63,218 nucleotides of DNA from the NCBI GenBank assembly GCA_900315225.1, contig OMYM01000334.1, positions 1 to 63,218 of the forward strand. The letters run 5' to 3'. The notes beneath the pieces are model-generated. The model saw only the letters and a program-made list of their open reading frames with translations. It did no database searches and was not told the DNA's origin. Numbering within the stretch: position 1 is the stretch's first letter; every line of letters starts with the position of its first letter. The DNA comes from an uncultured Erysipelotrichaceae bacterium. Its GTDB lineage: Bacteria > Bacillota_I > Bacilli_A > Erysipelotrichales > Erysipelotrichaceae. The translations under genes were made by a program, and so were the position numbers. Shown here piece after piece: positions 12,333 through 46,191 of this stretch.

Positions 12333-15300
12333 TTAGGCAAACACAAGATTAGGGTTACGACCAAACGTCAACCCCGGCACTTCATCTTGCTTGTAGATTC
12401 TACGAAGCAGGAAGTGAAGCTCATGCTTGTCGAGAATATCGTATTCTTTCATGAGTTCAGGATGTGCGTCAAACAATGTCTCGGTAGACATCTCCAGACC
12501 ATGGAATTGTCCAAGATCCAGCTCATCCTTGAGCTTTGTATAGTCTCTAGAATCAATGTCATAGAAACGCAAGACTGTCTTAGAACGGCACAAGACATGA
12601 CGTCCCCTCATCATTCTTTGCATGATCTTTGTTTCGGATCCTTCGACCCAGGCAAGCTGGGGATATTCGTCAAGGTGATAAATGGCGATAAAGTCTTTAT
12701 AGTATTCCGCAAATTGGGCAATGTCTGTTTGTTCCGTACACCTAGTCTTGAGGATGTAGTCTTCCATGACCTGCTTGTTTACAAGCAAATCCACGCCTTC
12801 CAGGCGCACAATGCTCTTGCGGCGATATTTCTCTATGCCCTCCTTTACGTTCTTTGGCGCATTGGGATCCTCTAGCACTCCCATCATATCCCTTGTGCCT
12901 TTCTTGTAGTACAACGCCAGGAAATTCAAGGTCTCTGCACTGATATTCATGAATCCCTGGTATGCATCGTCAGGTATGTTGTATGTCTGGTATACATGGG
13001 CAAGGCGATCCTCTTCCATCATATCGGTTCCATAATGTTCCAGACTTGCGACACGAAGCTCATCCGCGCCTTGTCTGACCATTGCCTTGACTTGTTGCAC
13101 ATCCAAACCAATGGTATCGCCGATCTGTTCATAGGAATCGCCGCCAAGGCAACGCAACAGAACTCTTGCCATGCGGTCATTGCCCATTTCCATGGCAACT
13201 ATTCTCGCTCTTGGAAGAACAATCGCATATCTTCCCTTTTTAACCGTTATATCATAATTGTCCAACATATCGCTGAGATATGTATAGAAGTCTCTTGGAT
13301 CGATGCCTGAAGCCTCGACAAGCTCGCTCTCGGTAAAGCTCTTGAGCGGATTGTTCTTAAGAACCTGATACACGGTGTTATCAAGGATAGCATCGGTTTC
13401 TTCGCTTGCGTTTAGATAATCCTCGCGCAAGTTGTTATAGTAGCGTCTGACATACACACTCGCCAAAGAAACCATGCCCTTGGCAAATGCATCGCAAAGC
13501 TCTTTCTCATAGCGTATGCCTTCCCTCGCCAAGGCATCAAAGTCATCCTGCGGCAAGGCAAATTCGTCTATGAGTCCTCCCTCGCGCTCAATATACTCCT
13601 CAAACGTTTCCTGCGGTTCATCCGCATATCTTTCGGCTTTCTCCTTGATGGAGAAGATCAAATCGTTTGCTTCGACCATATCCACATCGGGATAGCTGGC
13701 AAGTTGCCCTGAATAATACGCATCCATCAACTGGCTGTACAACACAATGCCATGGCTTGCCAAGGAATCATAGAGATCTTGCGTCGTCTCATCGACAATC
13801 GCATGGTCGCAATCCTCCAGATACTTCTGGACATTTTCATCCATTGGCTCGACAATCTCATTGACCACAAATGTCTCGGCATCATCCATGCCATAGTCGT
13901 TTAGCGGCGTGTCATCGGTGATCTCATCCACGACAAACGACTCCATGTCATCCAAGTCATAGTTGTACACCGGCAAGTCATCCATATTGATCGATGGAGT
14001 GTAATAATCGTTGCTTTCCTCTTTCTGTTCTTCGTCATCATCGTCAAAGAACGGTATTTGCATTTGTTGCGGCGCTTCTTCCTTGAACAGATTCTTCAGC
14101 GTCTCAAGGCCATCAAAGTCATACGGGAAGCCAACGTCTTCCATCTCCTCGTAGATGTCCTTGTATTTAGCAACAATGAGGTCGCGACAAGACGCAACGT
14201 TTGCCTTGCCCATGCCACGGGTATTCGTAAACGCATCTTGATCCTTCATGGCGGAAAGAAGATCCCCTTCGGTCACAATGGATAGCTTGGCAAGCAGGTT
14301 ATACGCGCGCGTAGAAAGAATATCCTTGTCATCTTCCAGCAAAGTGTCACGCATGCTTTCGATTCTCTCGCGGAAATCAGTCTTGATCTCCGTCTGTGGC
14401 AAGAATGATGGAATCTCCACTGGCGTGGAAGTCTTTGGCTCCACCACCTTCTCGCTGACAGGTTTCTCTTCCTCGGCAACTCTTTCCTCTCTTGCGCCAA
14501 TGGCATTGTCATACAACGCTTCCACTGCCGCAAGGTCTTGCCCATTGAATGGATATCTCAGATTATTGAGAATCCACCTATATTGGGCATATTTCTTATC
14601 CAGATACTCCTCGACCTGCTCCAAGGCTCTTTCACCCAACCCCTTGGCCAAGACAAAATCCTTGCCCTTGGAGAAATCATACAGTTCCCCATCCGTTGCA
14701 ATATTCAATTGCGCAAGGCTATAGGCAACCCTTGGACTCAAAGATCCAGGCGTAATCTTTTCGTTGCACTTATGCACAAGATCCGCAAACAGTACTTCCC
14801 TGATCTCTTTCTGGATATAATCATCGGATGTATTGCGCAACGTCTCTCTATCGTAGATCGCCGCCAAGTCGACATCATACACCGATCTTCTCTTCGAGGC
14901 ACTTTCCAAGGCATTCTCGAACAACTCCTCGATTTGCGACCAATTCCCTATCTCCAACGGATAAGACACTTCCTGCAACAAGCAAAGGATAGCACCAAAC
15001 TTGTTTCTCATATACTCCCCAAGATCCTCAGCAAGCTTATCGCCAAGGACACGGGACATCTCTTCCGTCTTCTGGGTCATTGCCTGAAAGACATCGCTGT
15101 CTTTCTTGATATCGTTCTTATACAAGATTCCCATGGCACGAGAAGTAAAGCGTTGTTCATCAATAGGCTCATCAGACACCTTGATGTACTCCTGCAAAAG
15201 CGCATCACGCATCATGTTTTCTGCCTGGGCATGTGACAAACCCTTCTTTTCCGCATCATGGTATGCCTTGCATGCCATTGCGGCAAGGTCTTTCAAGCGT

Positions 15301-18300
15301 GCTTGCTCAAGAATCTCCTCATGTACCTCTACTTCTTCTACGGGAGGTTCTTCTGGGATCACTTGAGGAGTTTCTTCTTGCGGCTTGGCACTTGTTAATT
15401 CAGATTTCTCTTCGAAGGGTGCTTCGATTGGCTGGTTTGTTTCCTCAGGCTGCGCTACTGGGGTTTCCTCGACTGGCTCACTTGTTTCTTCTGGTTGTTC
15501 CTGGGGAGCTTCCTCAACTGGTTCGCTTGTTTCTTCTGGTTGTTCCTGCGGAACTTCCTCGATTGGTTCGCTTGTTTCCTCAGGTTGTTCCTGGGGAGCT
15601 TCCTCGATTGACTCGTTTGTTTCCTCGGGTTGTTCCTGCGGGGCTTCCTCGATTGGTTCGTTTGCTTCCTCGATTGGCAAAAGAATCTCTTGTTCTGGAT
15701 CTTCCATGTCGCCAAAGAGCGACTTCAGATAGGAAAGCCCTTCGAATTGAACAGGGAATCCTTGTTCCTTCAGCTTCTCGTAGTGATACGCATAATACTC
15801 TTTGAAGTATTCTTTGATTCTTTCAATCGTTGCGGCTGCTATGCCTTTTTCGGACCTAAAGGCTTTCATGTTGGACATGGCCGAAAGGAGTTTTCTGTCT
15901 GTGTCATATCCAAGCTTCATCAAAGTGTGGTATGTCACGGGACTGAACATTTTTTCGTCTATTTGGGAGTCCAGCATTTCATCGATTGTCCATCCTTCAA
16001 TGACCTCTTGACCATCAAAGAGAGACTTGAGATATGTAAGTCCGACAAACTGGAGCGGGAAGCCCTGGTCTTTTTGATCCTCATAGAAAGGCTCGTAGTA
16101 GTCAGAGAAATATGAATCGATCTCTTCACGTTCTCTTTCATTGAAAGATGTGCCTTTGTCCATGATAGCCAAAAGGTCTTTGTCTTTTGCCACATGAAAC
16201 TTTCTTAGCGATAAAACAAGGGGACGGGAGAAACGGGAATAATCGATGGGCGATTCCAGCATTTCCGCAAGCGTTGGAATGTATTCTGTCTCGCCCAGAG
16301 CGACCATCAGGTAGTCTCTTCCAGGAAAGCCATCAGTTGCCTTTAGGCTGTCCAAAAGGTGGCTGTATCGTTTTACAAGGTATTCCTTGATGATATCTCC
16401 CGTTGCGCCACCAAAGCCATCTTCATATTCAAAGCCATGGTCTTTTTCCGCCAGTTTCAACAAATCGCCATCGGTTGAAACACCCTTGTTCATTAACACA
16501 TTATATAAGCGGAAACCGAGAGTCTTACGGCTGATCGGCATTTCCAGCATTTCCGCAAGGGTTTTGTTTTCAAGGTTTTCTTCGGTTGGTCCTTGGACTA
16601 GCGTGCCATTGTCAAATAGATTCTGCAGATATCCTAGGCCAGGGAATGATTCGGGGAATCCCTGTGCCTTCATCTTGGCGAACATTTCGGCGTAGCGGTT
16701 GCGGCAATAACCGTTGATATCACGAGCAAAGACACGAGCGTTGCCTGCGAATGACTTCAATGATTCAAAGTCTTCAAGTCTTTCCAAGAGCGCACGGTCG
16801 GTCTCGATTCCCTGTTCCTGCAGCACGTTCCAGGAGCGAGAAGCAAACCTATCTTTGTCCAATGGCGAATCCAGCAGTTTCTGTAGGTTATCGCCAACGG
16901 GCATCTTTAAATTATCTGATTGTTCATTCTCCGTTCTGACATGGAACACACGCATCATATAGCTTTGCCCTGGCATCGCCTCTGGGAAGCCTTTCTCTTG
17001 CATATTCGTGAAAAGATGGGCGTATCTCTTGCGTAGATGGGCATTGATGTCACGGATAAAGACACGGTCGTTTCCCGTCGCTGCCTTGAAGGATTCAAAG
17101 TCATCCAGTTTTTCCAAGAGCGCACGGTCAGTGTCGATGTTCAATTGTTCAATGTATCTTTTGGAACGTGAACTGAAGCAATCAAGTTCCAATGGGGAAT
17201 CCAACAACTCTTCCAAGGATTTGGCGGAATAGTCGATGAATGGATTTGCTTTCTCGGACGCAATGCCAAACAAGCCAAGCACATAGTCTTTTCCAGCGAA
17301 TTCTTTCTTGAAGCCTTCTTCCTTCATCTGTTCAAACACATGGACGTATCTGCGCTTGATAAAGCGATTGATGTCACGGATAAATACGTGGTCGTTATCA
17401 ATTGCTTCCTTGAAGGATTCGATGTCATCCAGTTTTTCCAGCAACGCACGGTTGGTGTCGATGTTCAGCTGCTCAAGGTATTTCTGGGAGCGGGGAACAA
17501 AGGACGCAATGTCCAATGGCGTATCCAGCAATTCTTCCAGCGACAATGAAGAGTAATCTACGGCAGGATGGATTTCTTCGGCTTGCACGCGGAACAAGCG
17601 GAACAAATAGTTTCTTCCCGCAAAATCATCTTTGAAGCCTTCTTTTCTCATGCGCTCGAATTCACGGATATATCTACGTCTTATATAGCCATTGATGTCG
17701 CGAATAAAGACACGGTCGCTACCTGTTTCCTGTCTGAATGCATCCCAATCCTGTAGCTGTTCGAACAATGAGCGGTCGGTCGTGATGCCCAACTGTTCCA
17801 GGTAGCCTTGCGAACGAGGGCTGAATTCATCTAGCACAATCGAAGAATCCAGTAGCTCGGGAAGTGTCATCAAGGCAATGTCGCGTTCTGTTTCCGCTGT
17901 CGCATCGGTATCTTGTTCTTCCTGGGGAAGGACGACCTTGAACAGCTGCAGTATGTAGTCTCTGCCTGGGAATGTATCCTTGAAGCCATCTTCCTTCATC
18001 TGCTCAACCGCATGGGCGTATTTGTCGCGGATGTAGTTGTTTATGTCGCGCACAACAACGCGATCACTGTCGATGGATGCCTTGAAGGATGCCATGTCTT
18101 CCAGCTTCGCAAACAATTCCCCATCGGTAGAGACACCCATTTGCTCGATGTAGGACTGGGAGCGAACGCAGAAACGATCAGTCTCAAGCGGGGAGCCTAA
18201 TAGCTCAGATAGCGTCATCGATTCATAGCCTGGTACTTCTTCGTCCTGCTCAATATGCACCTTGAAAACATGCAAAAGATAATTTTTTCCAACAAATGTT

Positions 18301-21284
18301 TCGCTGAAGTCATTTGCCTTCATCAATTCGAAAGCATGGGCATATTTTTCCTTGATATAACGATTGATGTCGCGGGTAACAATACGATCATTGCCTGTCG
18401 CTTCCTTGAACGAATCTACGTCTTCAAGTCTTGTGAACAAGTCTCTATCGGTCGCAATTTCCAGATGTTCCATGCTTTCTCTGGTGCGCAAGGAAACTTT
18501 CTTTTCTTCCCAAGGTGAATCCAGCAATTCTTCCAGGGACATGGTGGCGTAGTCTAGTTTTTCACCATCATCTTCCAGGTCGATACCGAAAAGACGCAAA
18601 ACGTATTTTTTTCCAGCAAGCGTATCATCGGCTTGCATTTCTTCAATAACGTTGCCGTATTTGTGTCTGATGTATCCATTGATTTCACGGGTAACGACAC
18701 GGTCATTGCCAATGGCTTCCCTGAATGATTCTATGTCTTCCAATCTGGCGAAAAGGACATGGTCGTTTTCAATGCCTAGGCTTTCTAGCAAGCTACGCGT
18801 CCTTGGACAGAAGAAGCCTGGGTCGAGCGGGGAATCCATCAGCTGGGCAAGGGACATGCCCGTGTAGTCGATATCGAGTGGCTTGTCGTCCTCGTCCTCT
18901 TGCTTGACGTAGAACAAACGTTTGAGAAAACCAATCGCCGCAAAGGACTCTGGGAAGCCATCGGGTCCTAGTTGGTCGTATATGCCTTGGTAGCGTTTCT
19001 CGGCATATTCCTTGACTTCGTTTATGATATTGCGCGATACGCCAGGCAAGGAACGGAAATCAGCCATGTTGGACACTGCCTCGAACAAGTCGCGGTCGGT
19101 ATATATCTCGTTGCGCAACAGGGTGACGTATGCCCTTGGCGATAACATGAAATAATCCAGGTGCTGTCCAAGCATCTTCCTAAGGGAATATTCTGCGTAG
19201 TCATTATCTCTGTCGCCAAGCAATCCCTTGAGATATGGCGATCCCTTGAAACGCAGCTTGGAACCATTCGCCTTGACTTGTTCGTATGCCTCGCCATAGC
19301 GTTCCTTGAGGTAGTCATTGATCTGTTCGCATGTCGCATGGGTGACTTTTTCGTGTTTAGCAAATTCCTCGTAGTCGCTCAATACGCGGAATAGGTCGCG
19401 GTCGGTCACGACATTCATTTCGCCTAAAGCCTTGATGCTAGCGTTGCTAAAGTATGAAAAATCGACTGGTTCGCCAAGCATAGAATCCATGGATATAACA
19501 AAAGGTTTTACCTCGATGCTTTGCAAGGCGTTTGCCTTGGCTTCCTGCAACTGACTAATCAATTGCGACAATTCATCGTTCTTTTCGATCGGGAACGTGA
19601 TATTATCTGCCAACGCAAAAACATCATGGTATCTATTTTCTAGGTAAGACTGTATCGAATCGATGGTTGTTATGCCAATCCCAGGGATTTCCAGCAGCTT
19701 GTCGGATTTGTATAGCGTATATAGCTCATAATCATGGAATATGCCTTCCTTGGCGAAAACCCTAAGGTTTTTCTTATTGATCTCGCTCATGTCGATAGCT
19801 TCGCCACGAATGGCGATCAAGCCGCATGAAAGCAATTCTCTAGCAGTATCGGTTGCCTTTTCCTGCTCTATGCCTCGCTCCAGCATAGAAGCGTATGCTT
19901 CGTTTGCCTGTTGAATGGCATCGCGGCTTGGGTCATAGGCAAACCCGCCCGTCTTTGTTTCGTTAAAGACATCCGTGAATACATCGCCATAGGCAAAAGA
20001 AGCGGGGAAGCCTTCCTTTGCCATGGCTTTGTAGGTCTCTTCATAACGCTCCCTAATGTATTGGCGCATGTCATTTATGATTGCCTTGTCGCTTTCTTCT
20101 CCCGCTTGCATGTAGGCAAGAAGAGCTTCGTCTGTCTCTATTCCCTTGGCCGCAAGAGCATGCCTAAGGCGGGGAGTGGCGCAACCATTGATCTTAGAAG
20201 CCAAAAGGTCTAAAAGGGATTCGCCTTTGCGGGAAGTCACCTTGGCCTTTGGGTTCTTGTAGAGTCGTTCTAGTTTCTTTTCATCGTTTTCGCTGAAAGG
20301 GAATGTCATGGTTTGCAAGGCATCCAGCACATTTCCATATTTTTCCTGCAGGTATTCACGCATCAAGCGTCCTGACTTATGGCCAATGGCGCGCTGCTGT
20401 TCAAAATCAGGATCTTGCAGGCGGCGGAACAAGGCACTGTCAGTATTGATCTTTTGCTCTGTCATGGCAGTGTATGTACGACCGGCAAGTGTTTCGATGT
20501 CAAGGCGTTCCTTGCTCAGGTCGATGAGTTGGGCCACAATGGCCAAGCGGATGTCTTCTTGTATCTCTTCGCTCGGCAACAAGATAAATGCATCGTCGTT
20601 GAACACTTTCTTCGCCGTTGCGACATACGGGGGATCTGCCTCGTCTTGCGGCAATTGCGTCATGCCAAACGGTTCAACAAATGGCGCAAGAGGACCGGCA
20701 GCCTGGAAAATAGAAACGATTTCGTCTCTTGTTAGATCAAGACTGGTTTCTTCAATCCTTGAAAACAACTGCCCATAGCGCGTGGAAAGATACTCTTCGC
20801 ATTCCTTTGCCAAGGCATCGTCAAAGTCTGGTTGTTTCTTCAAGGAAGAAACATTGCTTTCAAGCTCTTGCGCCAATGCGCCATCGCTTTCAATCATCAA
20901 GCGGGAAAGAATCTCCTTGAGTCCTTCAGACATGTCTTTGGTATCGATTTGTTCCCCGACCCTAAGCAACATGTATACCTTGATGGTTCTTCTTGCCATA
21001 GCGAGGATGCTTGCCTCGCTATGGCCGGCAAGCTTTTCCTTGATGCATGCGATGCGTTGCGACAAGCGCTTTGCTTCTACTTCGTAGTGAAGGTAATCGT
21101 ATGCCTTGTCTATCATCTCCAGGGCTGTCTTGAAATCCAGTTTCAATGACTGGACAAGATCGTCCGTGCCTGCCTCCGCTACGCTTTCGAGGGTGTCGTA
21201 TCCCCTGCGCAGCATTTTATTCGCTTCCGCCTTGGACACCCCTAGCACTTCTTGAAATATTTTCTTTATATCGTCATTTCCCAT
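12333..21284 (-). CDS. Giant alpha-CTD/HhH-like repeat protein with C-terminal HTH segments
   Basis: A single uninterrupted 2,983-residue reading frame, acidic and without signal peptide or membrane span, so cytoplasmic. Residues ~13-65 look like a helix-hairpin-helix (KAEANKMLRRGYDTLESVAE). From ~258 a unit of about 107 residues recurs: an LLDSPL lead, then FSPRSQGYLEQLGITTDR, a LEDxxSFK segment, a DRVFIRDIN segment, a Y-rich helix, then GFxxxFxGxxYLxxLF. I count 15 copies to ~1,860 and three more at ~2,050-2,420. The R..x.L...gI.T..dL.....g.....I...L pattern resembles the RNA polymerase alpha C-terminal domain; one copy has IPGIGITTIDSIQSYL (~530). A Pro/Glu/Gln tandem linker (~1,870-1,990) separates the blocks. 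The last ~300 residues include a winged-helix-like segment (~2,635-2,688) and a sigma-region-4-like HTH (YEQIGDTIGLDVQQVKAMVR, ~2,715). AAAGGAG precedes the ATG. Function is not known; a nucleic-acid or RNA polymerase scaffold is inference. Confidence 0.85.
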   Translation of the reverse strand: MGNDDIKKIFQEVLGVSKAEANKMLRRGYDTLESVAEAGTDDLVQSLKLDFKTALEMIDKAYDYLHYEVEAKRLSQRIACIKEKLAGHSEASILAMARRTIKVYMLLRVGEQIDTKDMSEGLKEILSRLMIESDGALAQELESNVSSLKKQPDFDDALAKECEEYLSTRYGQLFSRIEETSLDLTRDEIVSIFQAAGPLAPFVEPFGMTQLPQDEADPPYVATAKKVFNDDAFILLPSEEIQEDIRLAIVAQLIDLSKERLDIETLAGRTYTAMTEQKINTDSALFRRLQDPDFEQQRAIGHKSGRLMREYLQEKYGNVLDALQTMTFPFSENDEKKLERLYKNPKAKVTSRKGESLLDLLASKINGCATPRLRHALAAKGIETDEALLAYMQAGEESDKAIINDMRQYIRERYEETYKAMAKEGFPASFAYGDVFTDVFNETKTGGFAYDPSRDAIQQANEAYASMLERGIEQEKATDTARELLSCGLIAIRGEAIDMSEINKKNLRVFAKEGIFHDYELYTLYKSDKLLEIPGIGITTIDSIQSYLENRYHDVFALADNITFPIEKNDELSQLISQLQEAKANALQSIEVKPFVISMDSMLGEPVDFSYFSNASIKALGEMNVVTDRDLFRVLSDYEEFAKHEKVTHATCEQINDYLKERYGEAYEQVKANGSKLRFKGSPYLKGLLGDRDNDYAEYSLRKMLGQHLDYFMLSPRAYVTLLRNEIYTDRDLFEAVSNMADFRSLPGVSRNIINEVKEYAEKRYQGIYDQLGPDGFPESFAAIGFLKRLFYVKQEDEDDKPLDIDYTGMSLAQLMDSPLDPGFFCPRTRSLLESLGIENDHVLFARLEDIESFREAIGNDRVVTREINGYIRHKYGNVIEEMQADDTLAGKKYVLRLFGIDLEDDGEKLDYATMSLEELLDSPWEEKKVSLRTRESMEHLEIATDRDLFTRLEDVDSFKEATGNDRIVTRDINRYIKEKYAHAFELMKANDFSETFVGKNYLLHVFKVHIEQDEEVPGYESMTLSELLGSPLETDRFCVRSQSYIEQMGVSTDGELFAKLEDMASFKASIDSDRVVVRDINNYIRDKYAHAVEQMKEDGFKDTFPGRDYILQLFKVVLPQEEQDTDATAETERDIALMTLPELLDSSIVLDEFSPRSQGYLEQLGITTDRSLFEQLQDWDAFRQETGSDRVFIRDINGYIRRRYIREFERMRKEGFKDDFAGRNYLFRLFRVQAEEIHPAVDYSSLSLEELLDTPLDIASFVPRSQKYLEQLNIDTNRALLEKLDDIESFKEAIDNDHVFIRDINRFIKRRYVHVFEQMKEEGFKKEFAGKDYVLGLFGIASEKANPFIDYSAKSLEELLDSPLELDCFSSRSKRYIEQLNIDTDRALLEKLDDFESFKAATGNDRVFIRDINAHLRKRYAHLFTNMQEKGFPEAMPGQSYMMRVFHVRTENEQSDNLKMPVGDNLQKLLDSPLDKDRFASRSWNVLQEQGIETDRALLERLEDFESLKSFAGNARVFARDINGYCRNRYAEMFAKMKAQGFPESFPGLGYLQNLFDNGTLVQGPTEENLENKTLAEMLEMPISRKTLGFRLYNVLMNKGVSTDGDLLKLAEKDHGFEYEDGFGGATGDIIKEYLVKRYSHLLDSLKATDGFPGRDYLMVALGETEYIPTLAEMLESPIDYSRFSRPLVLSLRKFHVAKDKDLLAIMDKGTSFNEREREEIDSYFSDYYEPFYEDQKDQGFPLQFVGLTYLKSLFDGQEVIEGWTIDEMLDSQIDEKMFSPVTYHTLMKLGYDTDRKLLSAMSNMKAFRSEKGIAAATIERIKEYFKEYYAYHYEKLKEQGFPVQFEGLSYLKSLFGDMEDPEQEILLPIEEANEPIEEAPQEQPEETNESIEEAPQEQPEETSEPIEEVPQEQPEETSEPVEEAPQEQPEETSEPVEETPVAQPEETNQPIEAPFEEKSELTSAKPQEETPQVIPEEPPVEEVEVHEEILEQARLKDLAAMACKAYHDAEKKGLSHAQAENMMRDALLQEYIKVSDEPIDEQRFTSRAMGILYKNDIKKDSDVFQAMTQKTEEMSRVLGDKLAEDLGEYMRNKFGAILCLLQEVSYPLEIGNWSQIEELFENALESASKRRSVYDVDLAAIYDRETLRNTSDDYIQKEIREVLFADLVHKCNEKITPGSLSPRVAYSLAQLNIATDGELYDFSKGKDFVLAKGLGERALEQVEEYLDKKYAQYRWILNNLRYPFNGQDLAAVEALYDNAIGAREERVAEEEKPVSEKVVEPKTSTPVEIPSFLPQTEIKTDFRERIESMRDTLLEDDKDILSTRAYNLLAKLSIVTEGDLLSAMKDQDAFTNTRGMGKANVASCRDLIVAKYKDIYEEMEDVGFPYDFDGLETLKNLFKEEAPQQMQIPFFDDDDEEQKEESNDYYTPSINMDDLPVYNYDLDDMESFVVDEITDDTPLNDYGMDDAETFVVNEIVEPMDENVQKYLEDCDHAIVDETTQDLYDSLASHGIVLYSQLMDAYYSGQLASYPDVDMVEANDLIFSIKEKAERYADEPQETFEEYIEREGGLIDEFALPQDDFDALAREGIRYEKELCDAFAKGMVSLASVYVRRYYNNLREDYLNASEETDAILDNTVYQVLKNNPLKSFTESELVEASGIDPRDFYTYLSDMLDNYDITVKKGRYAIVLPRARIVAMEMGNDRMARVLLRCLGGDSYEQIGDTIGLDVQQVKAMVRQGADELRVASLEHYGTDMMEEDRLAHVYQTYNIPDDAYQGFMNISAETLNFLALYYKKGTRDMMGVLEDPNAPKNVKEGIEKYRRKSIVRLEGVDLLVNKQVMEDYILKTRCTEQTDIAQFAEYYKDFIAIYHLDEYPQLAWVEGSETKIMQRMMRGRHVLCRSKTVLRFYDIDSRDYTKLKDELDLGQFHGLEMSTETLFDAHPELMKEYDILDKHELHFLLRRIYKQDEVPGLTFGRNPNLVFA
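14050..20510 (-). repeat. About 18 coding tandem repeats of an alpha-CTD-like domain
   Basis: The segment encoding RDIN and its equivalents recurs near 16713, 17042, 17366, 17691, 18041, 18361 and 18681, that is every ~320-350 bp. Units near 17.0-18.7 kb are the most alike; outer units are diverged, with identity kept at the RS/R..YL, T-D-x-x-L, D-I-N-x-Y-I and G-F positions. This pattern suggests recent expansion from the centre. Confidence 0.8.
15420..15672 (-). repeat. 45-bp tandem repeat encoding a Pro/Glu/Gln linker
   Basis: Five full copies of a 15-residue unit (EPIEEAPQEQPEETS and variants) plus a degenerate tail lie between the two blocks of alpha-CTD-like repeats. The unit is acidic and proline-rich, as expected for an extended flexible spacer. 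Copy number is likely to vary between strains by slippage. Confidence 0.85.
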
Positions 21285-26986: not shown

Positions 26987-29095
26987 ATGTTGAAGGATCT
27001 GTTTCTGTTTGTTTTGAACCTCAGCATTACAGCATCCTGGGTCATTCTCGCTGTCACGATCATCCGTTTCCTGCTTCGCAAGTCGCCCAAGAAGTATTCG
27101 TATTATCTCTGGGCTGCCGTGGCGTTTCGCTTGGCATGCCCAGTGTCCTTCAGCAGCAAAATCAGCCTGCTGGCCATGGCGTCAGCATCTGCTGTCACCC
27201 TACAGGAAGTACCTGTTTCACAAATGGTCTATGTCCAGGAAACGGACATGCCCGAAAAAACCATACAGACAACACCGCCTGCTGCTGAAACAGCTGTTAC
27301 ACCGACAAAAAAGAAAGTGGATCCCTATGCGGTTGGCTCCTTTCTCTGGGTCAGCGGGATGGCGGTCTTAGGGATCGCTGGCACCATCAGCTATGGCCAA
27401 ATCGCAGTGTTCATCCGTCATTGCGAAAGAAAGGGAAATCTTTGTTACTGCGATGGGATTCCCTCGCCGTTTGTCTTCGGTCTGCTGCATCCCGTGATCT
27501 GCCTGCCGCTTGGCCTGCCGAAAGAAAGCAATCGGTATATCCTTGCCCATGAAAGATATCACATCCGCCGTGGCGATCATCTGGTCAAGCTGGTTGGATA
27601 TGTTCTTTGCGTGATCCACTGGTTCAATCCCCTGGTATGGCTGGCATACCGCATGATGGAACAGGATATGGAAATGAGCTGTGATGAGGCGGTCATTGCC
27701 CAGGGCAAGGCTGCCCGCAAGGATTATGGAAGACTGTTGTTAAGCTTTGGCGAACAGCACAGCACGCTGTATAAGCCTCTGTCTTTCGGGGAAACAGATA
27801 TCGCATCAAGGATCAAGAATATCCTGTCTTTCCGCAAACCGAAAAAGTCAATGGCTGTAATCTATGCGATTGCCGTCACCCTGGCGGTCATCGGTTGTTC
27901 CATAAATCCCTCATCCACCTTACCAACAGAAAACCCATCCGTTATCTGGACCCAAGAACCGTCAATGGCGCTGGACATGGTCAAAGAACCCAGCGGTTAT
28001 GTCAGCACCTTCACGGCAGAAGGAAACCGTTTTGTCATGGCTTCCTGTTTCAATCTAGAAGGATACTCTCCATCCTGGTTCGGAAACTGGACTGCAAACG
28101 CCATTATTGTGGCTGAAAATGGAAAACAGGGCATTTATGACTACAATGGCAATGAACTGTATCCATTGCTAGTGCAGCCAAAAGATGCCTACCAGATCGG
28201 TATCAGCCGCTTTTTGACTGGTGAAAACGATCTTCAATTTGGCTATCTTACAGAAAAGACTGGTGAGATGATGGGAAAGGGAATGGTATTTTCCGATGAC
28301 TTCCGCTCAGCACTCCCTTGTGAAACCATGTACATTGATCCTTTTGAAGGGGATATGTTCTATGTCTACAGCGTCATGCATGACGGTCAATACGGAACAC
28401 TGAATCTCATGGACGACACTTTTACACCCCAATTACCAGTGAAGCGATATGAAATATGCCGTCAATGGAAAGAAGGTTATATGTTTGAAGAAGAGAAGGT
28501 GCTTGTTTATGACGGCAGGATCATTGCCAAGGTGGATCACGGATATGATGAAAGACTGATCAATGGTTATTACGGCTATTACCGCAATGGCCTCAAAGGC
28601 ATGATCAAGGCCACAGAAGAAAAAAAGATCACCGAAGCAGTATATGAAGATGTCAAATGGTTTGAAGAGGGCCTATGCCCAGTGAAATACAATGGTAGAT
28701 GGGGATACATCAATGAAGAAGGAAAGCCGGTCACAGAGTATCTGTTTGACGATGCTTCCACACTCTATGACGGCAAGGCATACGTTGCTGTCAACGGTCT
28801 TTACGGCATCATTGACCTGAAAGCCACCCTCGCCAATGGCATTCCAGTCACGCATGAAACCTGCACCGTATGGGAAAAGGAAGAACCCATCATGCGGATT
28901 ACCGTCCTTCCCGATGCCATCAACATCCGTACAGCACCCTCGCTTAAGGCGGATATTACAGCCAAGGCGCTACAGGGAAGCTCGTACCCGGTCTATGAGA
29001 CAACCGAGGCAGAGGGCTATACATGGTACCGCGTTGGCAAAGATCGTTGGATGGCAGATGACGGCACATGGTTAGCAAAAGTTTCTTCCGAGTAA
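26987..29095 (+). CDS. BlaR1-like M56 metalloprotease with WG-repeat and SH3 sensor region
   Basis: 702 residues. Residues 1-310 form a BlaR1/MecR1-type M56 peptidase: N-terminal spans, zinc motif HERYH near 188-192, EMSCDEAVI near 227, and a last span (AVIYAIAVTLAVIGC) near 290-305. The extracytoplasmic part is not a penicillin-binding domain: it holds KWG/WG-type repeats (GRWGYINEEGKPVTEYLF near 570) and an SH3-like end (INIRTAPSLKADIT ... WYRVGKDRWMADDGTW). By family logic it senses an envelope signal and triggers loss of the BlaI-like repressor encoded upstream. The ligand is unknown; the SH3 suggests peptidoglycan. Confidence 0.88.
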   Translation: MLKDLFLFVLNLSITASWVILAVTIIRFLLRKSPKKYSYYLWAAVAFRLACPVSFSSKISLLAMASASAVTLQEVPVSQMVYVQETDMPEKTIQTTPPAAETAVTPTKKKVDPYAVGSFLWVSGMAVLGIAGTISYGQIAVFIRHCERKGNLCYCDGIPSPFVFGLLHPVICLPLGLPKESNRYILAHERYHIRRGDHLVKLVGYVLCVIHWFNPLVWLAYRMMEQDMEMSCDEAVIAQGKAARKDYGRLLLSFGEQHSTLYKPLSFGETDIASRIKNILSFRKPKKSMAVIYAIAVTLAVIGCSINPSSTLPTENPSVIWTQEPSMALDMVKEPSGYVSTFTAEGNRFVMASCFNLEGYSPSWFGNWTANAIIVAENGKQGIYDYNGNELYPLLVQPKDAYQIGISRFLTGENDLQFGYLTEKTGEMMGKGMVFSDDFRSALPCETMYIDPFEGDMFYVYSVMHDGQYGTLNLMDDTFTPQLPVKRYEICRQWKEGYMFEEEKVLVYDGRIIAKVDHGYDERLINGYYGYYRNGLKGMIKATEEKKITEAVYEDVKWFEEGLCPVKYNGRWGYINEEGKPVTEYLFDDASTLYDGKAYVAVNGLYGIIDLKATLANGIPVTHETCTVWEKEEPIMRITVLPDAINIRTAPSLKADITAKALQGSSYPVYETTEAEGYTWYRVGKDRWMADDGTWLAKVSSE

Positions 29096-41502: not shown

Positions 41503-41551
41503 TGGTGACTCCTTTCAAACTGTTTCATTATAACAACTATACCAGAAAAAA

Positions 41552-41573
41552 GGATGCCTACATTTGGGCATCC
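41552..41573 (-). terminator. Terminator overlapping the stop codon of the kinase-like gene
   Basis: Read leftward: GGATGCC, loop containing the TAG stop, GGCATCC, then T6. The stop at 41558-41560 lies within the hairpin, so ribosomes reaching the stop would cover it. Confidence 0.8.
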
Positions 41574-43432
41574 TGTATCAAGCGATAGATTTCTTGATTG
41601 AGATTGTTCCACGTTTCGTAGTCTTGTTTTTCAAACAAGTGGTTGGCGAATTCGATTGCTTCGCGACAAACCAATGACTTGCCATTGATGCTCATCAGAG
41701 CAAGCAATAGCTCGTATAGCTTGTCACAGTTACGTCCTGTTGCCTTTGCTGTCTTGATGCGCGAGACAATTTCTTTTTCCCAGTCATCGTATCCTGTATG
41801 GCGAAAGAGTCTCCTTTTGCCTAGGATATCCCCCATGATGTAGAAGTCTGCCTGGCGCAAGAGATTTGTCAGATTGTTGGAAACAATGCTCATTCTTTCA
41901 CCCTTCTCATAGTAGATGACTTCCTTGTGGTCGTCATCCACCACGCCATAGATCGCAGGGTTGTCTCTGCCGCTTTTGGGCGATATGAAAATCAGTCCTG
42001 TATCCAACTCGTGCAACAGATGGTGGAAGGATTTTTCCTGTAACATGCCGCAATTGGTGAGATCATTGCTACAGAAGTTGCGCACAATGACACAATCGTA
42101 CATGTTCAAGGCATTGAAACGGCTTTGCATTTCGTCTTTTTCTTCATCGATCTTCTGGTAGAGTGGCTTCATTGCCATGTTTTCAACCATCTTTGTGCAA
42201 TGATCGATGCCTTCCTCGGATGGGTAGTTCATCGCAATGGTGTTGATGCCTTCTTTGCGCAATGCGTTTTCCAGCTTCATCGCAAAGTCTGCCTCTTCAT
42301 TGCCATAGATGAACACGGTCTTTCTGCCATCCGCCACGTATGTCTCAAATACATCTGGGTCGTATTCCATCTCGACAAAGCCATCTTCGTATGGGGCTGT
42401 CTTGTTCTCCAGCGATAGCACCAGTTCTTTGACATCCTCTAGCATCTCGCTGGCGGTTTGGTAGCGCAGCCTGCGGTCGTATTCCGTTGCTTTCACAAGG
42501 ATATGGTTGAGTACCCTGCGGGATATGTCCTGGTCAAGCCCAATCTTTCTAGCGGCTTCCGCCGTCACGATGCGAAGGCGTGGTTCTTGCGGGTTGTGGC
42601 GTATCAAGTCTCTTGCGACTTGGAAGGTGTGCCTTGGCATCAGCGCCCCCATTAACAACATCCCTGCCCCGTATGTGTCGGATGAAGAATACACCAATAG
42701 GGACCTGACGGTCTCAGGAGCAGCCGTGTTTTCATCGTACATGGCTTTTTCGTTGAAGACAGCCTTGCCATCGACTGCCTTGAGCGTGTTTGCCTCGTTT
42801 AACAAGATTACCTTGTCGATGTTGCCCTCATTCATGACAACCGCAAAATTATGCTCGTTGATGTTTCCCGCCAACCTGTCTTGCTTTGCCAAGTCGCACA
42901 AATATTCCAACAATGCCTTGATAAACGCACATACCGTATGAACATTGTTGCTTTCGGCGAGAAGTTCACGCAATCGCATGACATCCTTTGGCACGCTGCG
43001 GTCAATGTAGTATGTATTTCTATCGATAATCTCGGTGAATGGCGTTTCATCTGTCGCCAACTGTTGTTGTTGGCGCTTTACCTTGAAACGGGCATCGTCA
43101 TACGTCCTTCCCTGGGGTTCAATGATACCGTTCTCCCCTCTTGTCTGGGTGGGCTTGCCATCCTTGTCCAAGGCGAAGGGAAAGACCTCCCGCACAATCC
43201 GCCACACGTTAAGACCTGGATCCTCGCAAAGGTAATATAAGCATAGCTCGTCCCAGCCTATGAGTTTTTCCACCCGGAACCTGCCGCCAATTACTTCATC
43301 TTTGTTCAGGGGAACCCGTTGAAGATCCGGATTCACTGCCTTGTCCAGGATCAGGTCGCCAAACTCCGATTTCCCTTTCGTATTCGTGGACACTACATAT
43401 GCTCCCAAGCTTGTCAATCCTAAATCTTTCAT
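41558..43432 (-). CDS. Pseudokinase-like protein with possible TIR-like C-terminal domain
   Basis: 624 residues from an ATG preceded by AAGGGGTGATGGA; no membrane span. Residues ~50-385 follow the bacterial Ser/Thr kinase order: RFRVEKLIGWDELCLYYLCE in place of the Gly-rich loop, WRIVREVFPFAL in place of VAIKEYFP (catalytic Lys replaced by Arg), NINEHNFAVV for the HRD/DxxPxN loop, no DFG, then APETVRS, SSSDTYGAGMLLMGAL for the TDIYSLG helix, and a closing KATEYDRRLRYQTASEML. It is probably catalytically dead. Residues ~392-560 are alpha/beta: TVFIYGNEEADFAMKLENAL resembles TIR/SEFIR starts, with IVRNFCSNDL and GLIFISPKSG strands following. Both assignments are by eye. The partner or signal is unknown. 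Confidence 0.6.
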   Translation of the reverse strand: MKDLGLTSLGAYVVSTNTKGKSEFGDLILDKAVNPDLQRVPLNKDEVIGGRFRVEKLIGWDELCLYYLCEDPGLNVWRIVREVFPFALDKDGKPTQTRGENGIIEPQGRTYDDARFKVKRQQQQLATDETPFTEIIDRNTYYIDRSVPKDVMRLRELLAESNNVHTVCAFIKALLEYLCDLAKQDRLAGNINEHNFAVVMNEGNIDKVILLNEANTLKAVDGKAVFNEKAMYDENTAAPETVRSLLVYSSSDTYGAGMLLMGALMPRHTFQVARDLIRHNPQEPRLRIVTAEAARKIGLDQDISRRVLNHILVKATEYDRRLRYQTASEMLEDVKELVLSLENKTAPYEDGFVEMEYDPDVFETYVADGRKTVFIYGNEEADFAMKLENALRKEGINTIAMNYPSEEGIDHCTKMVENMAMKPLYQKIDEEKDEMQSRFNALNMYDCVIVRNFCSNDLTNCGMLQEKSFHHLLHELDTGLIFISPKSGRDNPAIYGVVDDDHKEVIYYEKGERMSIVSNNLTNLLRQADFYIMGDILGKRRLFRHTGYDDWEKEIVSRIKTAKATGRNCDKLYELLLALMSINGKSLVCREAIEFANHLFEKQDYETWNNLNQEIYRLIQDAQM

Positions 43433-43485
43433 TCCATCACCCCTTGCTTTATTGTACAACAAAACGGTTGTCTATGAAATATAAA

Positions 43486-43502
43486 GGCAACCTTCCGTTG
43501 CC
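43486..43502 (-). terminator. Terminator of the AP2-domain gene
   Basis: GGCAAC ... GTTGCC stem, with TTTATA following in the leftward direction; it overlaps the last bases before the stop at 43508. Confidence 0.55.
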
Positions 43503-43507
43503 TCTGG

Positions 43508-43936
43508 TTACTCCGTTGCTTCTTCTTCAACGTGACCAAAATACTTCAGTTCCGCATCCTTGCGTGCCTTGATTGCGTCATTTACATCAGTGTATGTTCC
43601 AAGGAAGATATTCCTGCCTTTCACAAAAATCCTTGCATTCCACTTTTCGAGCGCAACATTCCAAGTGACGCCCGTCTTGCCGGACTTGCTGCGCTTGGAA
43701 ACCTTGCGGTTTTGAATTTTCTCTATCGTATTTGGCGATACGAGATCCGCCTGGTGTCCCTTGCCGCAAGTCTTGGTGTGGCCGGATTTCAGGTGAATCT
43801 GCCTGACTGTCACGCGGTTGCCGCAATCACATACGCAATTCCATTCCGCATGTCCGTTTCTTCTGCCTGAAAAGCTTTCAACTGTCAAGTAGCCAAACTT
43901 TTGTCCCGTTAGATCAACGCTATATCCTGTTCCCAT
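43508..43936 (-). CDS. AP2-domain DNA-binding protein
   Basis: 142 residues. The C-terminal half is an AP2-type DNA-binding domain (GKTGVTWNVALEKWNARIFV, then LGTYTDVNDAIKARKDAE). The N-terminal half begins DLTGQKFGYLTVESF and has a cysteine cluster (CVCDCGN near 34-40 and TCGKG near 56) likely to bind zinc. This layout is known from phage-borne and HNH-associated AP2 proteins, but no HNH nuclease motif is present. It stands alone; a mobile origin is plausible but unproven. Confidence 0.8.
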   Translation of the reverse strand: MGTGYSVDLTGQKFGYLTVESFSGRRNGHAEWNCVCDCGNRVTVRQIHLKSGHTKTCGKGHQADLVSPNTIEKIQNRKVSKRSKSGKTGVTWNVALEKWNARIFVKGRNIFLGTYTDVNDAIKARKDAELKYFGHVEEEATE

Positions 43937-44140: not shown

Positions 44141-44842
44141 TTACTTCTTCCCCAATAGCAGACCCGCTAAGTCGAACATCGAGCCAAGGGACGATGAGGA
44201 CGTATTGTTGGTGGCTTGCCCTTGATCCAGGGTAAAGCCTTGCTGGGGAGTGGTGGCTTGCGCGGATGCGCCAAGCAGGCTTTGCAGGACACCAGTCAAT
44301 TGGCCTGTGTCAGTGTTCTGCGCTTGCGCCTGTTGTTGCGTTCCGAGCAATGCGCTCAACAATTGGTTGGATGATTGTTGCTGGGCTGGCTTTTGGTTGT
44401 TGCCAAGCAATGCGGCCAATGGGTTTGTCGAAGTGTTTTGCTGGCTCTGTCCGCCAAGCAAAGACAACAGCGAAGAAGCGCCAGATCCCTTGTTGAACAT
44501 TTTGTACAGTGTAATAAAGTCGTTGATGTCAAGCTTGCCATCCAGCAAAGCCATGACTCCAGAAGCCCTGGTCGGGTTGGAGTCATCGTTAACAATGCGC
44601 ATCAACTCGTTTGCGTCAATGTCGCCATTTGCCTCGGTGAACAAGCGAACCAATGGATTCTCGCTCAGCTCTTGCTTGACAGCGTCCACATCCTCACTGT
44701 TTCCTGCCAGTTCCCTGACGACATCCTTGTTGGAATCAAGCAGGTCGTTCATCTTTGCGGGATCTTTTTCAAACGCCTCCAGAACCTTGACTGTCCCTTT
44801 GCGCCACTTGCTTTGCGATGTCTTGAAATATGCTTTGGACAT
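44141..44842 (-). CDS. Q-rich protein with LLG repeats and EF-hand-like motifs
   Basis: 233 residues, no signal peptide or membrane span. Residues 1-120 are helical and charged, with two EF-hand-like loops (NGDIDANELMRIV near 73 and DGKLDINDFITLY near 101) that lack the usual first Asp. Residues ~122-233 are a low-complexity Gln/Asn/Ser/Thr stretch holding five spaced LxxLLG-like motifs: SLLSLLGG, PLAALLGN, LLSALLGT, VLQSLLGA and LAGLLLGKK. I recognise no family. AAGGAGGG precedes the ATG; it is the last gene of a three-gene unit with the CpXC protein. Confidence 0.72.
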   Translation of the reverse strand: MSKAYFKTSQSKWRKGTVKVLEAFEKDPAKMNDLLDSNKDVVRELAGNSEDVDAVKQELSENPLVRLFTEANGDIDANELMRIVNDDSNPTRASGVMALLDGKLDINDFITLYKMFNKGSGASSLLSLLGGQSQQNTSTNPLAALLGNNQKPAQQQSSNQLLSALLGTQQQAQAQNTDTGQLTGVLQSLLGASAQATTPQQGFTLDQGQATNNTSSSSLGSMFDLAGLLLGKK

Positions 44843-44873: not shown

Positions 44874-45518
44874 TCATGCGTTTCCTTGTGCCTGGGTAAA
44901 GAGTGAAATCACCCATGCGCTGTTGACCAACGGGATCTCTGCCTCGTCGATGCTGTACAAATCTGCTTCCGCCTTGATCTCTTCTTCCAACAGATTGACG
45001 GGGATATGGAACGACATTCCCTTGTCATCGGTGCGGATGTTGATCTTCATCACATCGTTCTTTGTGCTTTGGTATTCAATCGAAGTAATGTCTGCGGGAT
45101 TTCCCTTGCGGTTGTCGATGAACTCAATGAAGCAATCGTATTTGGCGATTTCCACCAATATATCGTCCATTCCGTCTTCGAACACCTGGATCTTTTCCGT
45201 GAATTCCTCAATGGTCGAGCATCTTCGCAAGCGAAACCCTGCGGCAGCCAATGGCTGCGCGTATGCCTTGACGCTTGGGGGCAGCTCAACATCCGAAAGC
45301 CACAGGATGAACCTATGATCCATGTCGGTGTAGACCATGTGCGGCTGCACCATGAACTGGGTGTGGCAATGGGGGCATGTATGCCGAAAGATATCCCCTG
45401 AGAGGCATCGATCCCGCAAATCGGGATCGTCGCGGGTGTTCACCGTGGTGTACGTGGTGATCTCAAACGCCTTGCCACAATATGGGCAGACGTATGCCAT
45501 CTCCCTTGCCTCGCTCAT
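44874..45518 (-). CDS. CpXC-domain zinc-binding protein
   Basis: 214 residues with two CPxC pairs, YVCPYCGKAFEI at 9-20 and HTCPHCHTQFMVQP near 46-59, which define the CpXC domain, a putative zinc-binding module of unknown role in Bacillota. The remainder is acidic and mixed alpha/beta. The gene starts one base after the stop of the upstream gene and its GAGGAG ribosome site lies inside that gene, so the two are tightly coupled. Confidence 0.82.
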   Translation of the reverse strand: MSEAREMAYVCPYCGKAFEITTYTTVNTRDDPDLRDRCLSGDIFRHTCPHCHTQFMVQPHMVYTDMDHRFILWLSDVELPPSVKAYAQPLAAAGFRLRRCSTIEEFTEKIQVFEDGMDDILVEIAKYDCFIEFIDNRKGNPADITSIEYQSTKNDVMKINIRTDDKGMSFHIPVNLLEEEIKAEADLYSIDEAEIPLVNSAWVISLFTQAQGNA

Positions 45519-45519
45519 T

Positions 45520-46191
45520 CTAGCTCCTCATGGAAAAGCCATTGAACGTCAAGCCATGGCTTTCCATTTCCTTGATCATTCGATCAATTTCCTGTCTTTC
45601 TTCTTCGCTCAATTGCGCCCCGACCGGTATCGCCAACAAGTGGACTTGCTTGTCGTAGATGTATGGCAAGGCAAGCATTGGCTCGCCTTCAATCTTGCCA
45701 GAGAGGAAGGGTCCCCTCACTCCTTTGATCTCCAAAGGGAATTCCCTGATATAGCGACCGTTGAACAATCCTGCCAGCACTTTGTCGGGATAGTCGTAGT
45801 CGCGCAAGTCGTCCAGTCTTCCATCATGCCTTGTCTTCAGGATGTCGTCATCGACATTTTCTTCCGTTGCATCGAAGAACGGCTGGTTCTTTTCGATCAT
45901 TTCATCGTCGGGGTCCAATAGCCTTGCTTCCTTGTCCTCCACTTGCTGCATGGTGTAGAAGCCCAGCATATTCTTGTCATCCAGCCCCCGCATCGGACCA
46001 TCCCACGAATTGCCAAGGGAAAGGACATTGAACTTCACCATCCCATCCGTCTCCACATAGCAAGAGCATAATGCATAGCAGTCATCGTCGTGAATGCCAA
46101 AGGCAGGGTCAAGCAGAGCCGTCAGCTCGTCTGCCTCTATGACCAAATACCCTCCATAGTATTCAGAGAAACACATATCCTTGATTAACAT
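45520..46191 (-). CDS. Conserved-looking protein of unknown function, CpXC partner
   Basis: 223 residues, soluble and acidic. Beta-rich start (YYGGYLVIEADELTALLDPA), cysteines in DDCYALCSCYVE, a VLSLGNSWDGPMRGL segment, and a helical end (SEEERQEIDRMIKEME). I do not recognise a family. It is the first gene of the unit with the CpXC and LLG-repeat genes; GGAGG precedes its ATG. Confidence 0.7.
   Translation of the reverse strand: MLIKDMCFSEYYGGYLVIEADELTALLDPAFGIHDDDCYALCSCYVETDGMVKFNVLSLGNSWDGPMRGLDDKNMLGFYTMQQVEDKEARLLDPDDEMIEKNQPFFDATEENVDDDILKTRHDGRLDDLRDYDYPDKVLAGLFNGRYIREFPLEIKGVRGPFLSGKIEGEPMLALPYIYDKQVHLLAIPVGAQLSEEERQEIDRMIKEMESHGLTFNGFSMRS

Follow-up and report, generated by a model that had tools for sequence, protein, structure and literature searches.

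Bacterial pseudokinases that have lost all of the catalytic motifs are already known, and functions have been established for few of them (PMC12599244). The class is described by a kinase fold in which VAIK, HRD and DFG have become degraded; among its members EssB/YukC, ActPs1-3, GLW and CP1, in which all three motifs have diverged, scaffold roles have been proposed, with partners in membrane/secretion, COG3899 or MviN (PMC12599244). The same review covers the SelO- and SidJ-type precedents for other catalysis by the kinase fold, and the terms 'TIR domain' and 'Toll' are absent from its text. Fusion of a pseudokinase to a TIR or TIR-like part is undescribed in the open-access literature that we searched. 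Active kinase-TIR fusions are present in relatives of the uncultured, gut-type Erysipelotrichaceae bacterium studied here. We describe a pseudokinase joined to a part with a TIR-like opening, PSK, encoded in a window of 63,218 nucleotides (the whole stretch of DNA that was analysed). Like EssB/YukC and its counterparts, PSK has diverged at all three catalytic motifs, but it differs from them in their partners.

The PSK reading frame occupies exactly the coordinates given in the first-pass annotation (Table 1). It starts with ATG, is preceded by a ribosome-binding site (AAGGGG) 7 bases 5′ of the start codon and shows native codon usage; frame 0 alone gives a coding signal (+0.19 versus -0.11 to -0.51 in the five other frames). 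Hydropathy analysis found no stretch hydrophobic enough for a transmembrane segment. On the basis of the start, the ribosome-binding site, the terminators on either side, the codon statistics and the lack of a membrane helix, PSK is a genuine, single-gene, cytosolic protein.

Table 1. Coordinates of the PSK gene, its signals and the domains and residues discussed in the text
Feature	Position	Strand	Basis and remarks
PSK, whole gene; 624 aa, monocistronic, cytosolic	41558..43432	-	ORF, translation, RBS, terminators, codon usage, hydropathy
Terminator, 3′ end of PSK	41551..41574	-	8 pairs, T-run
Terminator-like stem, 3′ of the upstream HNH-like gene; splits PSK from the operon above	43483..43505	-	
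Promoter-like site TTCATA-16-TACAAT ahead of PSK	43451..43478	-	9/12 matches; chance level in the region
Pseudokinase domain, residues 44-343	42404..43303	-	lineage kinase HMM, PADLOC, NCBIfam, AF2, VIA-align
R81, replaces the catalytic β3 Lys	43190..43192	-	profile and MAFFT alignments
N190, replaces the HRD Asp	42863..42865	-	profile and MAFFT alignments
LLNEANTL (210-217), replaces the DFG stretch, without Asp	42782..42805	-	alignments
α/β domain, residues 365-545; 365-425 TIR-like, remainder without TIR signal	41798..42340	-	
E466, aligned with the catalytic Glu in the TIRs of two kinase-TIR fusions; no backing from profile scores	42035..42037	-	MAFFT
Helical tail, residues 548-624, four predicted helices	41561..41791	-	AF2, modest confidence

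The neighbours of PSK include genes for an ABC transporter, a CpXC protein and a Bax1-I protein, as well as mutL. Defence genes are absent beside PSK, as are MADS genes nearby; PSK is a solitary gene flanked by housekeeping genes. Nearly all of 18 relatives share the order g223-CpXC, with mutL and miaA upstream where checked; none of the 18 carries PSK, and gene content after CpXC varies. PSK sits at a variable spot downstream of this conserved mutL-miaA-g223-CpXC synteny. An operon of PSK with the upstream HNH-like gene or with CpXC was rejected because of the terminators and because PSK is missing from relatives that keep g223-CpXC. The base composition of PSK equals that of its surroundings and therefore gives no sign of very recent import.

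Several neighbouring genes deserve mention in their own right. Directly upstream of PSK, positions 43508-43936 (minus strand) encode a 142-aa protein with an AP2-like C-terminus, which matches the HNH-endonuclease-type phage family phrog_374 (2.9e-30) and has no Pfam match. In most members of the genus an uncharacterized 223-aa protein, likewise without a Pfam match and present in 47 of 70 genus genomes, adjoins a CpXC protein (45520-46191 and 44874-45518, minus strand). The 233-aa Gln/Asn-rich protein at 44141-44842 (minus strand) has no Pfam assignment; its family is widespread, with members at unrelated loci in roughly half of the genus, and shows no link to kinases. Elsewhere in the window, 26987-29095 (plus strand) encodes a BlaR1-type M56 peptidase that also carries WG repeats and an SH3 domain, and 12333-21284 (minus strand) is one ORF of 2983 aa.

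No PSK orthologue was found in 40 relatives or in overlapping samples of 295 genomes from the order, 70 from the genus, 273 from the family and 392 from the phylum, nor in GTDB contigs (two pattern-based scans), IMG/VR, phages or plasmids, where the GTDB and IMG/VR scans detect close relatives only and Clostridia-type genomes lie outside the profile searches. Apart from chance matches, the searches returned nothing but kinases that align with the C-lobe; the phage match MT835604 is an ordinary PASTA-type kinase. As an orthologue is absent from all searched samples, PSK is treated as an ORFan, so far unique; arguments from conservation are impossible for any of its residues, and there are no orthologue neighbourhoods to compare.

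The N-terminal half of PSK is a pseudokinase. A lineage kinase profile, for which 13 kinases and pseudokinases were taken from this genome and related ones, aligns with residues 44-336 over the full domain from end to end (64 bits), which bears out the Hanks-type order of landmarks read in the first-pass annotation. Several members of this profile carry KE-x-[FY]P at strand β3, followed by an insert. General libraries match the C-lobe of PSK only (Pfam Pkinase, E 0.089; phrog_2361, 9e-4; NCBIfam PknB, 1.4e-4). The closest family matches are the defence kinases PD-T4-6 (6.6e-7) and MAD6 (5e-6) of PADLOC; these significant but weak profile matches are again confined to the C-lobe, and no full-length match to either model was found. 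Both models represent kinases of defence systems, whereas PSK is devoid of catalytic residues and of adjoining MADS genes. In its C-lobe PSK is most similar (29% over about 110 residues) to PASTA/PrkC (PknB) kinases, which belong to the same superfamily but are active, membrane-anchored and equipped with PASTA repeats.

All four motifs reported as replaced are indeed replaced in the alignments. The glycine-rich loop reads LIGWDELCLYY, and the β3 stretch is IVREVFP in PSK versus VVKESFP, ALKECFP and VAIKEYFP in kinases. LAGNINEHN occupies the position of IIHRDIKPQN, and Glu213-Ala214-Asn215 fall on DFG in two of three alignments and slightly earlier in the third. In addition, the αC segment (residues 111-125) is without a Glu. 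Asn195, Glu240 (of APE), Asp252, Gly257 and Arg323 of the kinase fold are retained. With Arg81, Asn190 and LLNEANTL at the catalytic sites in every alignment, PSK is a pseudokinase and no active kinase. It thus fits the class as described (PMC12599244), in which the kinase fold persists and VAIK, HRD and DFG are degraded.

The predicted structure agrees with this assignment. An AlphaFold model computed from an alignment of 11 kinase and pseudokinase relatives has pLDDT values mostly of 70-95 for residues 40-345, and VIA-align superimposes residues 47-343 on solved kinases with a Z-score of 20.6; the kinase part is therefore confident and kinase-like. Foldseek and VIA-align both place the model among kinases (PknG, PknB, JAK, SYK). 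Because the input alignment contained kinases, the model depends in part on the kinase profile, although its confidence is still that of the query; the single-sequence prediction is useless (pLDDT 34).

The C-terminal part had been called TIR-like, and this holds for its opening, TVFIYGNEEADFAMKLENAL, which starts at residue 372. A profile built from 44 TIRs of the window's own genome scores the C-terminal part at 9.8 bits, above all 500 shuffles (best shuffle 8.4), and ranks it first among 722 real-protein fragments, the 30 true TIRs aside, and first against 199 E. coli K-12 controls, including CheY, PhoB, CheB, CreB and UspC. Profile alignment gave 27.9, with 27.4 for the best of 300 shuffles. 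With four re-sampled TIR profiles PSK always came first against the E. coli controls, first to fifth among the shuffles, and at rank 31-33 among the real fragments, that is, at or just after the true TIRs. The signal is concentrated at the start: residues 365-425 score 11.6 bits, a value reached by none of 2000 shuffles, whereas residues 428-545 score -0.3 and are equalled or exceeded by 943 of 2000, the split having been picked after the first alignment was seen. These half-by-half scores establish that the βA/αA/βB opening is TIR-like beyond chance and that the remainder, where the catalytic Glu would be expected, is unrecognizable as TIR.

Curated models do not extend the TIR assignment further. 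Neither the whole protein nor its C-terminal part has a TIR match in Pfam (E up to 10), and PADLOC yields none either (E up to 1 for the whole protein and 10 for the C-terminal part). For residues 346-624, PADLOC and the PDB sequences gave no match and Pfam none of note. A profile derived mostly from TIR-WD40 proteins likewise gave no signal; of the TIR profiles tried, only that of the diverse own-genome TIRs did. For residues 365-545 AlphaFold predicts the order β-α-β-α-β-α-β with low pLDDT (mostly 35-60), and the VIA-align list consists of kinases only and is uninformative on this part. As the second half scores no better than shuffles, no curated TIR model matches and the predicted structure is of low confidence, the C-terminal part can be named TIR-like at its start but is not assigned to the TIRs. 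A lead to DUF4062/Swarozyc (PMC13174449) was dropped, as PSK has no DUF4062 match.

The nearest counterparts in architecture are found in the same genus. A kinase-TIR protein of genome G266 (L012) has, like PSK, a kinase domain with an α/β or TIR domain directly behind it at the same position, and its kinase alignment with PSK (250 columns, 26% identity) is the longest among TIR-bearing relatives. In contrast to PSK, its motifs are intact (ALKECFP, HLDIQDGN, IDFGSS), its TIR is recognized as TIR_2/ThsB_TIR and it has a long extra C-terminal part. Two proteins of the window's own genome combine a pseudokinase and a TIR in one chain, as kinase-TIR-pseudokinase (L187:590-2584) and as TIR-pseudokinase-FHA (L189:3-1502, the FHA-like part assigned by eye). 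The second kinase domain of L187 shows losses similar to those of PSK (VMVRICPG, YHGNIKL). Both proteins differ from PSK in domain order, in their Pfam-matched TIR and in the extra active kinase or FHA part, and direct sequence homology to PSK is limited to the kinase fold. Since L187 and L189 are both present, the joining of pseudokinase and TIR arose more than once in this genome.

The repertoire of this genome (G000) is exceptional. It contains 47 TIR_2 matches, 45 of them above the Pfam cut-off and many on short contigs (loci L193-L241), and 15 Pkinase matches; as the assembly is large (5.2 Mb, versus 1.3-4 Mb in relatives) and 9% contaminated, the repertoire may span more than one strain and these copy counts are upper bounds. 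Other genus members mostly have 0-5 TIR_2 matches, with higher counts in G200 (22), G004 (16), G192 (10) and G021 (10), and this disparity marks the host genome as a place to seek new conflict systems. The partners fused to its TIRs include DUF6273, NTPases and, by eye, Sel1-like repeats.

On these grounds, we propose that PSK is a pseudokinase module controlling a C-terminal α/β output domain in phage defence or in conflict or stress signalling, a reading to which we give a probability of roughly 40%. The pseudokinase would act as a binding and conformational module devoid of phosphotransferase activity; binding of a ligand or partner may expose or cluster the C-terminal α/β domain, which would provide the output, more probably through self-association than through catalysis. 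A dead kinase in the role of a sensor, as suggested in the first-pass annotation, would be compatible with the motif loss and the predicted fold. Phage defence or conflict/stress signalling is the likeliest setting because of the exceptional repertoire of TIRs, kinases and mixed proteins in the same genome. Against this reading stand the missing TIR signal in residues 428-545, the poor model and the lack of an identifying match for the C-terminal part, the absence of adjoining defence genes and of an orthologue in the searched samples, and the matches to PD-T4-6 and MAD6, which cover the C-lobe only and would fit ordinary PrkC-type kinases as well. PSK as a switch protein in a TIR- and kinase-rich genome is plausible but unproven. 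A more specific version, in which PSK would be a single-gene immune switch made of a dead Hanks-type kinase sensor and a fast-evolving TIR-derived effector, within a genome-wide mix-and-match set of TIRs, kinases and sensors, seems to us rather unlikely. If real, PSK would unite two immune modules in a single chain, much as eukaryotes pair pseudokinases with immune receptors.

The chief alternative concerns the identity of the output domain. It might be another three-layer α/β fold, flavodoxin- or Rossmann-like, that shares only the β-α-β opening with TIRs, and PSK would then be a pseudokinase-regulated protein of stress or metabolic signalling. That the second half scores at shuffle level, that no curated TIR model matches and that a (pseudo)kinase of the same genome (L188) carries, by eye, a non-TIR α/β part behind its kinase domain make this a real possibility. 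However, the CheY-like, universal-stress and other α/β controls of E. coli all score below PSK with the TIR profile, and an alternative family for the C-terminal part was likewise not found. Next comes the view that PSK is what is left of a kinase-TIR fusion, a copy in decay that drifts without any function, as the loss of all kinase and most TIR motifs and the lack of an orthologue in every relative searched could suggest. We consider it distinctly unlikely, because 624 codons have stayed open with native codon bias in one frame, the ribosome-binding site and terminator are intact, and the structural residues Glu240, Asp252, Gly257 and Arg323 have been retained while the catalytic ones were lost. 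Still less probable is a kinase fold with relocated residues and another chemistry, such as transfer of AMP, glutamate or ADP-ribose in the manner of SelO or SidJ: Arg81, Glu213 and Asn195 could conceivably still touch a nucleotide, but Lys, the HRD Asp and DFG are all missing, and Pfam and PDB sequence searches revealed no resemblance to SelO or SidJ. A true TIR NADase gated by the pseudokinase is hardly credible, since the suggestive placement of Glu466 on the catalytic Glu of two kinase-TIR fusions falls in the half where profile scores are noise, and PSK lacks both the βB D/W and the box-1 Ser of TIRs.

Two further features of the window's genome were noted apart from PSK. A C-terminal DUF6273 (WWLRSPG) is common to TIR proteins and to a kinase/coiled-coil protein (L205:7134-8357, L231:3913-5655 and L144:301-2736), as though different effectors drew on a single sensor or target module. 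Furthermore, two kinase-like proteins (L188:7341-10022 and L215:218-3397) have an unassigned α/β part behind the kinase domain, and the one at L215 is encoded just upstream of a TIR gene.
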